A DNA stretch of 64,000 nt. Source: Candidatus Zymogenus saltonus (GTDB taxonomy: Bacteria > Desulfobacterota > Zymogenia > Zymogenales > Zymogenaceae). The translations under genes and the position numbers were made by a program. The notes below the pieces were generated by a model. It was not told the origin of the DNA. It made no database searches and saw only the letters and a list, made by a program, of their open reading frames with translations. The stretch lies in contig JAFGIX010000054.1 of the NCBI GenBank assembly GCA_016929395.1, forward strand, positions 124,001 through 188,000, read 5' to 3'. Position 1 is the stretch's first letter. Each line of letters begins with the position of its first letter. This document shows, in pieces, positions 33,734-40,235 of the stretch.

Positions 33734-36700
33734 ATGAAGAAAATAATATTTTTCACCGTCGCCATCGTTCTTGCACTTTCCTCATATTCATTTTCCGCAA
33801 GCTTTGAAATCTCCACCGACGAGATATTTGCTCCGGGGGATCCGAATAATCCGGTAACGGTCTCAGTCTCCTCGATAGATATCCCGATTCTCGACATGAG
33901 GATTTACAGGATCGATGATCCGGAGGCCTATTTTCTGGGCTTAAAGGATATTCATTCCCCGACGGTCAAGACGAAGCGCGACATCTCCGGGACATCGGAG
34001 ATGATAGGCGGGGTCAAGAGGAAGACGAAGAGGCTGATTAGGCAGGACTACAGGTCGCTCCTTACCGTTAAAATGCGGGAAGATGTGGTATCCGCCCTGG
34101 GTCTCCCCCATGCAATAGAGGCCGAGACGAAAAAGCCGGAGACCTTTGAGCTCTATCCGGTTTTGAAGGAGTATAAGCTTCTAAAGAAGTGGAACGAGGA
34201 GCTGAAGACCACGAAGCCCGGCAGGTGGGAATATCACAATATCGCAATCGATGTTAAGGAGTCGGGGTGTTACCTTGTCGAGGCGGTATATCAGGACAAC
34301 GTGGCCTACACTGCGGTCATCGTGACCTCCATAGCCTTTGTGACAAAGAACTCACCCACCGACGACCTCGTATACGTGGCGGACAGGGTGACCGGAAAGC
34401 CGGTGGCCAACGCCAAGGTCTCGATTTGGGGAAACGACAAGAAGAGGATTACCTCGGGCAGTACAAACTCCTACGGCGTGTTCTACAAAAAGACGGAAAA
34501 GGAGGAGGTCGAGGGTGTCTATGTCTTTGCGAAGAAGGGCGACTCCTTTACCATAGCCGATCCCTATACCTATTTTGGCTGGTACGAGTCAAAGGACAAG
34601 ATCTACACCTACACGGACAGGCCGGTGTACCGTCCCGGCCACACGGTCCACTTCCGCTCTATCGTAAGGGAGGGGAAGGACGAAGATCTTATAGTACCAA
34701 GGGATGAGAAGGAGTTCGTTGTGGTGATCAAGGACTCCAAGGGAAACGAGATATACAGAAAGAGCCATGAGATCAACGAGTTCGGGAGCCTCTCCGGGGA
34801 GCTAGTTCTGGGGGCGGAGCCCCCCCTGGGGGAATATGAAATCATTATCGACTATAAGGATGAACACTACTACAGCAGCTTCAAGGTCGAGGAATACAAG
34901 AAGCCGGAGTTTGAGGTAACCGTAAATACGGACAAATCGGTCTACATCACCGGCGACACGATAAAGGCGGACATCGAGGCGAAGTATTATTTCGGGAGTC
35001 CCGTCAACGGCGGCGAGGTGGAATACGTCATCTACAAGGCGGTCTACAAGCGCCCCTGGTGGTGGGGCTACGACTGGGCCTGGTATTACATGGACTCCGA
35101 CTACTACTGGGGCACCAAGCAGGAGATGGTGGACAGCATGAAGGGAAAGCTCGATGAAAACGGGAAATTAAGCGTCTCTATTGACACATCCAGCTACGTG
35201 AATAACATCAACGACGATTACACCTTTACCGTCGAGGCCAAGGTCACCGACCTTTCGAGGCGGGAGATAAAGGGGGCGGCGTCGATTAAGGTGGCCAGGG
35301 CGGCCTTTGCCATGATCGTTAGGACCGACCGCTGGTTGTACTCCCCCGGTGATGATGCGAGGATTACGGTAACCGTCCTCGATTTTCAGAACAAGAGGGT
35401 CCCCAATGTCAAGGTAAACCTTATCGTTACAGAAACGGGCGGGGACAAAAAAACCATCACCTCGACCGAGATGTTCAACGCCGTCACAAATCCGGACGGT
35501 GAGGCGATTTATAAATATAAGGTAAAGGGAACCGGTAAAATCGATTTTGCCGCAAGCGCCTTTGACTTTTACGGCAATTCCACATCGAGCGTAGACAACG
35601 CCTATTCGTATACGTGGGGAAGGGGGTATGACAGTGGAGGAATGGCGGGGGGGATTACGATACTCCCGGACAAGAACAGCTACGAAAAGGGGGATACCGC
35701 TCACGTCCTTATCCTCACCCCGGCGGAGAGCTCCTATATCCTTTTCACCGCGGAGGCCCGCTCCATAATCGAGTCCAAGGTTATAAAGGTCGAGGGGGGA
35801 TCGGCCATGATCGATATACCCATAGAAGATATACACACCCCCAACATCTTTCTTACCGCCAGCATGATCTTCAACAACGAGATATACACCGAGACGAAAA
35901 ACATGATAATCCCAGCGACCCAAAAGTTTATGAACGTGGAAATAACTTCCGATAAGGAGATATACGAGCCGCAGGAGGAGGGAACCTTTACCGTTACCAC
36001 CACGGACTATAAAGGGAAGCCGGTGTCGGCGGAGGTCTCTCTCGGGCTTGTGGACGCAGCTATATACGCCATCGCCCCGGACAACGTCATCAACATAGAG
36101 AAGTATTTTTACAAGCTCAGGCCCCACGTCGTCGAGACGACATCGTCCCTCTATTTCAGGTTCTACGGCTATTCCCACAGGAAGGGCCTCCTCTCCGCCC
36201 TCGATAAGAAGGAGACGACCCTGGCGGACTTCAAGGGGGATACCGGAATGGTGGAGCCGGAGATAAGAAAGGACTTCAGGGACACAATGTATTGGTCCCC
36301 CGCTATCGAGACGGGCCTCAACGGCAAGGGGACGGTGAAGCTCAAGTTTCCCGATAACCTCACCCGCTGGCGGGCCACATCCAGAGGGGTCACCACGGAT
36401 ACAGTGGTCGGCGAGAACACGTACAGGGTCATCAGCAGAAAGGACATGATAGTCAGAATCGAGGCGCCGCGCTTCTTCCGCCAGGGGGACGAGATGCTGG
36501 TCTCGACCATCGCCCATAACTACCTTTCGGAGGACAAAAACGTAAGGTTCACCTTCGACGCCAAGGGACTCAAGCTCTTCGGCGGCGGGCCTAAGGAATA
36601 TGTGGTGCCGAAGAACTCCGAGAAGCGGATAGACTGGAAGATAAAGGCGGAGGACGTTGGGAGTGCGGTTCTGACCGCAAAGGCGATGACCAATGAGGTC

Positions 36701-38392
36701 TCCGACGGGATGGAGCTCACTATTCCGATTTTGCCCAAGGGATTGAGTATTCGCGAAAACCGGATGGGCGAGATCCTCAAAGATCCGGGCAAGGTCAAGA
36801 TCACCCTTGAAAGGCCGCCCGATACGGTCAAGAACTCCTCCGAGCTGGTGATAGACATATCCCCAACTCTAGTAAACACGATGGTAGCCGCCATACCGTA
36901 TCTGGTCGGCTACCCATACGGGTGAAACGAGCAGGTAATGGCAAGGTTCTTGCCATCCGTTATGGTAACATCGGTTTTGAATAAATTAGACCTCTCATAT
37001 CCCGAGATAGAAAAGGACCTCCCGAAGTATATCAACAGCGGGCTTATGGTCCTCTACAAAAGACAGCACGACGACAACGGCTGGGGCTGGTACGAGAACG
37101 ATGAAACAACCGCCTACATGACCGCCTATGTCCTCTATGGCCTGATCGAGGCGGAGAAGATTCTCCCCGGAACCAATATCAACATCAGGGTGGATAAAGA
37201 CGTCATTCGTCGGGGAACGGCCTCTCTCATCTCCCAGCTCCCCCAAATAGAGAAGGACTCGGAGAAGGTGTACGCCCTTTACGTCCTTTCCCACACCGAC
37301 AGGCTGAAGCTCGAGTGGCTGGACGAGATGTTCGAGAAGAGGGACAAGCTCACCGCCATATCGAAGGCGATGCTGCTTATCTCCTACGAAAACATGGGGG
37401 TGGACAATAAGGCGAAGACCCTCTACGATATGCTCATGGCGGAGAGGATCGAGGAAAACGGGTACGTCCACTGGGGATACAAGGGGGAGGATTTTTACTG
37501 GTGGCAGTGGGAGGCAGACGAGCTCGAGACGACCTCCTATGCGCTCAGGGTGATGGCGAGGCGCGACCTCGATAATCCCCTCATCGCGAAAGCGATCCGC
37601 TGGCTCATAGTCAACCGCACCGGCAACTACTGGCGCTCCACAAAGGCCTCAGGGAAGATCATCTACGCTTTCAGCGATTACCTCTCAAGGACCGAGGAGA
37701 TGAATCCGAACTACGAGCTTACCCTTAAGCTCAACGGGACGGATCTGAAAAAGCTCAGGGTAACCAAAAAGAACCTCCTTGACGGATTCGGCGCGATCAC
37801 GATAAAAGATAAGGACATAAAGCAGGGAGAGAACGTGATCGAGATTTCAAAGAAGGGGCCTGGGACCCTGTATTACTCCACGACGTTTACGTACTACGTG
37901 GACAGGGGGGATATAGCGCCGGATAATTCCGGGTTCAAGGTCGAGAGGCGCTACTACCTCCTTGAAAAGGTCCCCCAGGACGGCAAGCTGATTTACTTGA
38001 AGAAGCCGCTCAACGGCCCGGTCAGGAGCGGAGACGAGATACTGGTGGAGCTGGACGTCTCCGGGGACAAAGTTTGCGATTACCTCCTTCTCGAGGACTA
38101 CTTCCCGTCCGGCTGCGAGGTGATAGTGGACGACGAGAACTACACGATCACCGGCGACGACTTCTACTCCGGCCGTTACATATATTGGTATGCGGGGAGA
38201 GAGATCAGGGACGAGAGGATCGCCTACTCTCTCAGAAATTTCCGCTATGAAAAGTACACCTTCAAGTACCTCTTGAGAGCCCAGATACCGGGCATGTTCG
38301 AGGTGATGCCGGCCAAGGCGTACCTGATGTACTACCCGACGCTGACCGGCCGCACTGGAAGCGGAGAGCTTGTAATCAACGAGTCCCGCTGA
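33734..38392 (+). CDS. alpha-2-macroglobulin family protein with probable selenocysteine (TGA) at the thioester position
   Basis: A bacterial alpha-2-macroglobulin (about 1,552 residues), a periplasmic protease trap. After a signal peptide (to about residue 21, no lipobox) come macroglobulin domains (DRVTGKPVANAKVSIWG near 216, TDRPVYRPGHTVHF near 293), the bait/MG region, LVDAAIYAIAPDN near 775 and DTMYWSPAIETGLNGKG with FPDNLTRWRA near 850-880. In the thioester domain the family motif is YPYGCxEQ; here the codons read YPYG-TGA-NEQVMARFLP, the TGA at 36923-36925 (codon 1064). The frame continues intact for 489 more codons through WGWYENDETTAYMTAY to the true stop. A SECIS-like hairpin follows the TGA. 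I infer selenocysteine replacing the reactive Cys; a nonsense mutation or sequence error is the alternative. Start: ATG at 33734 behind GGGAG. Confidence 0.85.
36923..36961 (+). promoter_or_regulatory. candidate bacterial SECIS element directly after the in-frame TGA
   Basis: Immediately after TGA (36923-36925), AUGGCAAG (36938-36945) pairs perfectly with CUUGCCAU (36949-36956) around the loop GUU, or GGUUC if the closing G-C opens. The loop begins about 20 nt after the TGA. GG (36934-36935) can pair with CC (36957-36958) leaving a UA bulge, or AACG right after the TGA can pair with CGUU (36958-36961). Bacterial SECIS elements are known to be hairpins at about this distance with a G at the start of the apical loop. 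The codons used in the stem (GCA, TTG, CCA) are less common ones for this gene, as expected if RNA structure is under selection. Confidence 0.72.
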
Positions 38393-38459: not shown

Positions 38460-39527
38460 TTGAAGATACGAAATGGGGGGGGAGGGGGACACCGTGCCCT
38501 TCTCCCCCTTTTTTTAATCTTGATAATCTTTTTCGCCTTCGGGTGCGGGAGGGGTGCAAGGCGAGAAATCGAGATGGACCGCGCCCTCCATCGGGCGGCG
38601 GAGAAGGGGCTCGGAAGAGTGAAGGGGGCCGTCATCGTGACCGACCCGAAAACGGGGAGGGTAAGGGCCGTGGTCGAGAGGGACGCCTCGATCCTGAAGC
38701 CCTATCCCCCCGGCTCCCTCGTCAAATTGGTGACGGTTTGGGCGGGACTCGAAAGGGGGCTGATTACCCCTGAGACACTCTACGAGTGCAAAGGAACCGT
38801 AAACCTTTCGGGACGGGAGCTCAACTGCTGGTACCACAAGGGGCACGGGGAACTGAACCTGGTCAAGGCGATCTGCTATTCCTGCAATATCTATTTCTAC
38901 AACGTGGCGGATAGGATCGGAGCGGAGCACACCTACAAGGGGCTCAAGGAGCTCGGATTCGGCGAGGTAACCGGGATCGACCTCACCGTAAGCGACCGTT
39001 TCAACGGTGTGGAGTCCGGGGGAATCCTGCTGCCGCCCGATCCCGCTTTTTCCCACGAATACGCCATAGGGGACACCGACCTTATATGTGCAACCCCCCT
39101 TCAGGTTATAACTTACCTCTCCGCACTTACAAACGGGGGCAAGGTTCTTCTGCCGTGGTTGGCTAATACCGAGGCCGAGCTCTCAAGCTTTACTCCGAAG
39201 ATGATTCGGCACCTCGGGGTCTCCCGCTCGGAGGCGGTAATAAAGGAAGGGATGTTCGAGGCGGTCAGGTTCGGAACGGCCATGAACGTGGGAAGGGGGA
39301 TTATCGACCACGGCGTGGAGATAATCGGGAAGACCGGCACCGGCGGATTTTTAGGCACGGAGACGGCGACCCACGGCTGGTTTCTCGGGTTCGCCCCCAA
39401 AGAGAGGCCGGAGATTGGGGTCCTGGTCTTCGTCTACAAGGGAACAGGGGGGGAGGATGCGGCGCCGGTAGCCCGGGAGGTGTTCAGAGCCTACTTCGGG
39501 ATCGAAGCAGAGGAGAGCGGGGATTAG
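38460..39527 (+). CDS. lipoprotein penicillin-binding transpeptidase
   Basis: A 355-residue transpeptidase-only penicillin-binding protein. All three active-site motifs are present: SLVK (Ser86, Lys89), SCN in CYSCNIYFYN, and KTG in GKTGTGGF. It lacks glycosyltransferase and PASTA domains. The N-terminus is a lipoprotein signal (FFAFGC, Cys about residue 29), so it would be anchored in a membrane facing the periplasm. The start is probably the TTG at 38460 behind GGGGGAGAG. It lies 67 bp after the alpha-2-macroglobulin, recalling the Escherichia coli yfhM-pbpC pairing, in which the macroglobulin guards and the PBP repairs the wall. Confidence 0.88.
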   Translation: MKIRNGGGGGHRALLPLFLILIIFFAFGCGRGARREIEMDRALHRAAEKGLGRVKGAVIVTDPKTGRVRAVVERDASILKPYPPGSLVKLVTVWAGLERGLITPETLYECKGTVNLSGRELNCWYHKGHGELNLVKAICYSCNIYFYNVADRIGAEHTYKGLKELGFGEVTGIDLTVSDRFNGVESGGILLPPDPAFSHEYAIGDTDLICATPLQVITYLSALTNGGKVLLPWLANTEAELSSFTPKMIRHLGVSRSEAVIKEGMFEAVRFGTAMNVGRGIIDHGVEIIGKTGTGGFLGTETATHGWFLGFAPKERPEIGVLVFVYKGTGGEDAAPVAREVFRAYFGIEAEESGD

Positions 39528-39530
39528 GAT

Positions 39531-40235
39531 ATGATATTTGCCATGAAAAGAAGGAAACAGCTTTTTACGGCCGCACTGATTTTCCTTGGTTTGCTCCTCT
39601 TTGCGAATCAGGGATTCTCCCAGGAATTAAAATTAAGGGATAGTAGGACGAAGCACTTCACCGTACACTTCGCCGAGGCGCTGACCACGACGGAGCTCGG
39701 CGCTTTAAAAAAAGATCTGGAGGACGCATATTCCGACATCTTACGGGGGCTTTTTGAGATCGTCGGCGGCAAAGATTTTAACGGGAGGCCCATCGACATC
39801 GTAATCTTCGGTATGACCGGCGACTTCACGTCCTTGACAGGTCTCCCCTGGTGGTCGGCGTCGTGTGTGGTGGGGGATTCGATTTACCTCCAACCAATGC
39901 GAACCCTGAAGAGCCGAGGCATATTGAGCGAGGTCATCAGGCACGAGGTTGCCCTCGTCTTCATAAAGAGGCTTTCGGGAGGAGGCGAGCCTCCCGTCTG
40001 GCTGGCAGAGGGGCTTTCCGTCCACCTGTCGGGGGAGATAGAGAGGCTGAGGGCCAGAACAAGGGGCGAAAGGCCCAAGGTGTCGGGCACGGGTGACATA
40101 GACTCCCTCCTTCTGGACAGAGTAGATATAGACAAGAACCGCTGGGGCTACATTCTCGCCTACGAGGCGGTAAAAGAGATGATCGACAAGGGCGAAGGCG
40201 GGGAGATACTGAGGCTTCTTACGGGCGGCCGATAA
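39531..40235 (+). CDS. peptidase-MA-like protein with degenerate zinc motif
   Basis: A 234-residue exported protein (signal peptide to about residue 31, ending QGFSQ). The middle matches peptidase MA-like gluzincins: a helix with RHEVALVFIK followed by PVWLAEGLSVHLSGE. In active enzymes the first would read HExxH; here the second His is Leu (HEVAL), although the third ligand Glu of WLAEG is kept. It is therefore probably inactive or binds metal differently. It starts 3 bp after the PBP stop, so both are surely co-transcribed in the macroglobulin cluster. A start at the ATG 39543 is also possible. Confidence 0.7.
   Translation: MIFAMKRRKQLFTAALIFLGLLLFANQGFSQELKLRDSRTKHFTVHFAEALTTTELGALKKDLEDAYSDILRGLFEIVGGKDFNGRPIDIVIFGMTGDFTSLTGLPWWSASCVVGDSIYLQPMRTLKSRGILSEVIRHEVALVFIKRLSGGGEPPVWLAEGLSVHLSGEIERLRARTRGERPKVSGTGDIDSLLLDRVDIDKNRWGYILAYEAVKEMIDKGEGGEILRLLTGGR

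Follow-up and report, generated by a model that had tools for sequence, protein, structure and literature searches.

Results

The gene and its product

The window, by which we mean the whole stretch of 64,000 nucleotides analysed from Candidatus Zymogenus saltonus, carries a cluster of three genes of which the first encodes a bacterial alpha-2-macroglobulin (A2M) (Table 1). The frame of this gene extends from ATG 33734 to a terminal TGA at 38390-38392 and comprises 1,553 codons with the stop counted. It holds one internal stop, the TGA of residue 1064 within YPYG-TGA-NEQ. The earlier note had placed a single in-frame TGA at the thioester cysteine of a 1,553-codon A2M gene, and this is borne out by the frame, in which no random stops occur elsewhere, and by Pfam matches on both sides of the TGA (MG2, MG3, A2M_BRD, A2M, TED_complement and bMG10). 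A standard-code gene finder splits the Zymogenus gene into two.

Table 1. Features of the A2M locus, given in positions of the window.
Feature	Position	Strand	Details
Selenoprotein A2M gene (predicted)	33734..38392	+	1,552 residues including one selenocysteine; single internal TGA; Pfam; 60% identity alignment
N-terminal export signal MKKIIFFTVAIVLALSSYSFSA, without lipobox	33734..33799	+	Read from sequence
Thioester motif YPYG-U-NEQ	36911..36934	+	P-x-G-C-x-E-Q columns invariant in 28 aligned A2M proteins
TGA as predicted selenocysteine, residue 1064, at the thioester cysteine site	36923..36925	+	Second Zymogenus genome, TGA; G002, TGT; G003, TGC
SECIS hairpin ATGGCAAG-GTT-CTTGCCAT (predicted)	36938..36956	+	12 nt past the TGA; 8 bp, G-U loop, -9.1 kcal/mol
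C-terminal AYLMYYP, including the Met-Tyr pair (thioester shield of bacterial A2M)	38312..38332	+	Met and Tyr invariant in 28 proteins
Penicillin-binding transpeptidase, lipoprotein-like	38460..39527	+	PF00905, E 4.6e-46; next gene to A2M
Exported protein, 234 aa, third gene of the cluster	39531..40235	+	Conserved neighbour in G001, G002 and G003

The domain set of the family (MG domains, bait region, CUB, TED and a C-terminal MG domain) was recovered by Pfam together with a fold search. An AlphaFold model covering residues 864-1552, for which 28 sequences were used and Cys stood in for selenocysteine (Sec), reached a mean pLDDT of 88 and a pTM of 0.78, and its top match in the PDB is the Salmonella A2M 4u48 (E 1.8e-37), followed at lower rank by A2M-type proteins of E. 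coli and human and by complement proteins. This A2M is the sole one found by our searches in its own genome, a 3.76-Mb assembly of 92 contigs that is 99.6% complete. A GGAG ribosome-binding site lies directly upstream of the start of the signal region, and the N-terminal segment is probably a type I signal peptide.

Of the strict CxEQ motif, the Glu and the Gln are in place and the cysteine codon is TGA, giving UxEQ; as predicted from its codons, the protein is a selenocysteine variant of the A2M family and, strictly speaking, no thioester protein. The flanking P, G, E and Q are invariant across the 28 aligned A2M proteins. The hydrophobic shield is present as well, consisting of the Tyr-x-Tyr-Gly that precedes the Cys site and of the C-terminal Met-Tyr pair, which corresponds in the alignment to the MY of E. 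coli YfhM and has a thioester-shielding role in the C-terminal domain of Salmonella A2M (PMC4498604).

A SECIS-like hairpin follows the TGA

The sequence past the TGA folds into a perfect hairpin, AUGGCAAG-GUU-CUUGCCAU in its RNA form, which may alternatively be drawn with seven pairs and the loop GGTTC. It conforms to all four rules of the bacterial SECIS model given in a 2026 review, with 8 bp, the loop GUU, 20 nt and -9.1 kcal/mol (PMC13188914). Of 1,899 TGA triplets counted over the two strands of the window, the A2M TGA is the only one that precedes, at SECIS distance, a Watson-Crick stem of at least 8 bp with a G-G or G-U loop, and inside the A2M gene no other hairpin reaches that strength. 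The hairpin is identical in both Zymogenus genomes compared here and absent from the Cys relatives; in Zymogenus Ala takes the place of the Ser after the Met (TCG to GCA), a change that gives part of the SECIS stem. No Rfam family matches it. Compared with shuffles, the 61-nt stretch does not fold with exceptional energy (z -1.46), and the case for a SECIS therefore stands on position, loop, conservation and likeness to formate dehydrogenase (FDH), not on energy.

This likeness is to the FDH of the sister genus G002 and of G001. The A2M hairpin, ATGGCAA[GGTTC]TTGCCAT, and the G002 FDH hairpin, GTGGCA[GGTCT]TGCCAC, lie at an equal distance of 12 nt from their TGA codons and share a near-equal stem and a GGU loop, and the FDH hairpin of G001, GTGGCG[GGTCT]CGCCAC, is also found 12 nt past its TGA. 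The FDH of the window genome is of a second type with the hairpin at 14 nt and the loop TGGCA, the two types differing in loop placement, and the SelD hairpin, TGGCGCA[GGTCA]TGCGCCG, is farther from its TGA.

A separate 8-bp inverted repeat, GGTAGCCG/CGGCTACC at 36883-36890 and 36907-36914, is located directly before the TGA. It is kept in all three Zymogenus copies and not in the Cys relatives, and the synonymous codons at the repeat are also unusually conserved.

TGA and cysteine codons alternate at one site

The nearest relative compared was Candidatus Zymogenus sp. CSMAG_2390, which belongs to the same genus by taxonomy and is represented by a metagenome assembly of 550 contigs that is 88% complete. 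Its A2M has TGA at the identical codon position and is 87% identical to that of the window over a 300-residue query and 83% over 611 shared codons. Two sister genera, whose A2M proteins are about 60% identical to it from end to end, have TGT (G002) and TGC (G003) at the site, so that the alternation of TGA with cysteine codons in relatives, proposed as a check in the earlier note, was found at the exact codon. Of the 28 A2M proteins aligned from the phylum, all 26 from outside Zymogenus have Cys, both from Zymogenus have TGA, and every other frame passes the Sec site without a stop. Since Cys is present in all outgroups, the change was from Cys to Sec in the Zymogenus lineage.

A wider survey yielded no third UxEQ A2M in 395 genomes of the phylum. 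The Pfam TED model matched in 51 of these genomes, with TGA at the CxEQ site in Zymogenus only, and the pattern YxYG-TGA-xEQ retrieved the two Zymogenus genes and four chance matches, which were rejected as their frames are full of stops. A second pattern, applied to 29 genomes of one other class in the phylum, gave no match. Weak partial matches to the TED model with internal TGA codons were noted in other genomes of the phylum (G079:C26:2661-3050 and G244:C61:53018-53224).

The relative's assembly also holds the 5′ part of a second, clearly diverged A2M (L035, JAUWME010000319.1). Its contig stops at GGGTG, and this end falls two bases (TG) into the Sec/Cys codon. The copy may be a strain variant, and the point at which the contig breaks off might reflect a population polymorphic for TGA/TGC/TGT.

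Selection on both sides of the TGA

A comparison of the two Zymogenus genes gave a dN/dS of 0.062 for the codons that follow the TGA (dS 1.83) and of 0.057 for the 113 codons preceding it, with synonymous sites near saturation (dS about 1.8). The codons past the TGA are thus under strong purifying selection, equal to that on the codons before it. Within the part compared, no run of identical codons is longer than 1062-1073 (0-based, TGA=1063), which coincides with the TGA and the SECIS. The terminal stop of the gene is TGA in the window genome and TAA in the second Zymogenus genome, from which it follows that TGA still serves as a stop and has not been reassigned.

The selenocysteine machinery

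The earlier note had also proposed searching the genome for the Sec machinery, and the pathway proved complete, with tRNA-Sec (74.9 bits, anticodon TCA), SelB (397 bits), SelA (594 bits) and SelD (362 bits). SelD carries an in-frame TGA of its own, in KAAG-U-AAKT, and in the FDH of the window genome the usual Sec site is likewise a TGA. SelA and an FDH with TGA at its Sec site were found in all four genomes, including the second Zymogenus genome, in which, fragmented as it is, no tRNA-Sec above the cut-off was found. The sister genera with a Cys A2M likewise possess tRNA-Sec. As these genera also decode Sec, their Cys forms do not derive from lost Sec decoding, and the difference is specific to the gene.

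The neighbourhood of the gene

The gene order A2M, transpeptidase, 234-aa protein is shared by all four genomes, the transpeptidase being conserved in G001, G002 and G003 at 45-65% identity; in E. coli, yfhM is paired with pbpC (PMC4498604). The 234-aa protein has no match in Pfam or NCBIfam and gives the impression, and only that, of a degenerate MA-type metallopeptidase. In the sister genera selA is located about 8 kb upstream of A2M (L089 5800-7275 and 12041-16687; L090), and in the window genome selA and its neighbours are on a different contig from A2M. An ABC-type ATPase and exported proteins are encoded between selA and A2M in the sister genera.

Discussion

The TGA at the thioester codon of the Zymogenus A2M is real and no chance event, because the second genome shares it, purifying selection persists downstream of it and the SECIS-like hairpin that follows is unique at its strength. 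The reading of this TGA as selenocysteine, advanced in the earlier note, has gained support from the hairpin, the decoding machinery and the TGA/Cys alternation in relatives, and the Zymogenus A2M is very likely a selenoprotein. The explanation that we prefer, and consider quite probable as a whole, is that Sec is inserted at the UGA, forms an internal selenoester and captures proteases as part of an exported A2M. UGA, SECIS, machinery, conservation and predicted fold can each be read from the sequences compared, and from them we infer the incorporation of Sec in vivo. SelB and Sec-tRNA, together with the adjacent hairpin, would direct the ribosome to insert Sec at the UGA of the thioester motif. 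The selenol of Sec1064 and Gln1067 (U-N-E-Q) would then most likely combine into an internal beta-selenocysteinyl-gamma-glutamyl selenoester, from which the tyrosines of YPYG and the C-terminal Met-Tyr pair would exclude water. Cleavage of the bait region by a protease would shift the domains and expose the selenoester, whereupon a lysine of the protease would be acylated and the protease tethered. We infer both the selenoester and the capture because the UxEQ motif and the shielding pocket are conserved, and a selenoester in a periplasmic protease trap would agree with motif, pocket and export signal.

Selenium would be expected to speed the acyl transfer. The hydrolysis of a selenoester is also faster than that of a thioester, and the gain from selenium is therefore not self-evident. 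In synthesis, amines react more rapidly with the side-chain selenoesters of peptides than with thioesters (PMC7232547). We think it likely, on balance, that this is the first case in nature of a protein with a stable internal selenoester, and that acylation faster than that of a thioester favoured the change from Cys to Sec in this non-redox, covalent warhead of the A2M/complement superfamily.

It may be asked whether Sec, once inserted, forms a protease-capturing selenoester at all, or whether it has some other role, as in a redox or metal-binding site, or represents a near-neutral swap. Most prokaryotic selenoproteins are redox proteins, the change from Cys to Sec concerned thiol redox proteins in 15 of 17 families (PMC1794560), and the selenoester is itself putative, all of which count in favour of such a role. 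The A2M Sec, however, has no CxxU or UxxC partner beside it, and the acylating Gln, the Glu and the hydrophobic shield that are held invariant serve ester and not redox chemistry. Furthermore, TGA and hairpin have been retained at a dS of about 1.8, and the swap is therefore not neutral drift. We regard a Sec without the selenoester as unlikely.

That the TGA is a true stop appears very improbable. UGA normally terminates, and an ATG is found 12 nt past the TGA, so that the gene could be decaying or could yield a truncated A2M and a separate C-terminal piece from ATG 36938. Such a piece would have neither an export signal nor the Sec/Cys residue, and purifying selection is equal upstream and downstream of the TGA. 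The same TGA is present in a genome whose protein is about 83% identical over the 611 shared codons, the hairpin at the site is a good SECIS, and the frames of the other aligned A2M proteins are unbroken there. An error of sequencing or assembly would owe some plausibility to the draft state of the assemblies, the second of which stems from a metagenome, but two separate assemblies agree on the TGA, and neither a SECIS nor a run of conserved synonymous codons is producible by error. Genome-wide reassignment of TGA is at odds with an A2M gene that itself terminates with TGA, and with TAA in the second Zymogenus genome; error and reassignment are both hardly credible.

The closest known systems to the putative selenoester A2M of Zymogenus are YfhM/ECAM of E. 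coli (PDB 4rtd, 4ziu and 5a42) and the A2M of Salmonella (4u48), which resemble it in domain order, xEQ motif, shielding tyrosines, Met-Tyr pair, export and transpeptidase neighbour. It differs from both in the predicted selenocysteine at the place of the thioester cysteine and in lacking a lipobox, and its neighbour is a short transpeptidase whereas that of the YfhM type is a PBP1C with a transglycosylase domain. The Cys A2M proteins of G002 and G003, from the same family, share the gene order and come from Sec-decoding genomes, but have TGT or TGC and no SECIS hairpin. The Sec-containing FDH and SelD of these genomes are like the A2M in that a hairpin whose loop is G-rich follows an in-frame TGA, and unlike it in being enzymes of formate and selenium metabolism whose Sec forms no ester. 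A selenoester of Sec has also been suggested for SELENOK with DHHC6, likewise in acyl transfer, but that ester is intermolecular, transient, eukaryotic and only suggested (PMC5789314), unlike the one proposed here.

The 119 catalogued families of prokaryotic selenoproteins share UGA, SECIS and Cys homologues with the Zymogenus A2M, but most are redox proteins, and neither an A2M nor any thioester protein is among them; the terms "macroglobulin" and "thioester" are absent from this 2026 catalogue (PMC13188914) and from the 2025 deep-Sep paper. A full-text literature search for A2M and selenoprotein, whose coverage is without preprints and most subscription papers, returned nothing relevant. The earlier note knew of no described A2M selenoprotein, and none was found in the literature searched, within which it would stand as a new family of selenoproteins and, in its chemistry, as a new form of A2M. 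By family the protein would be an A2M with a changed key residue, and it is the chemistry that would be new.

Selenocysteine is known mostly from redox enzymes and from a few methyl- or sulfur-transfer proteins. The residue replaced here forms the thioester common to complement C3 and C4 and to the A2M of both bacteria and humans, and the Zymogenus protein appears to be the first known selenium-using covalent warhead in the A2M family, the relatives of the complement proteins. If the internal selenoester is true, it would be a new natural use of selenium, in acyl transfer within a protease trap, and a possible starting point for faster covalent protein-capture reagents. The predicted Sec A2M is known from one genus and two genomes. 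Zymogenus with Sec and its Sec-decoding sister genera with Cys constitute a natural pair in which the benefit of selenium outside redox chemistry may be measured.
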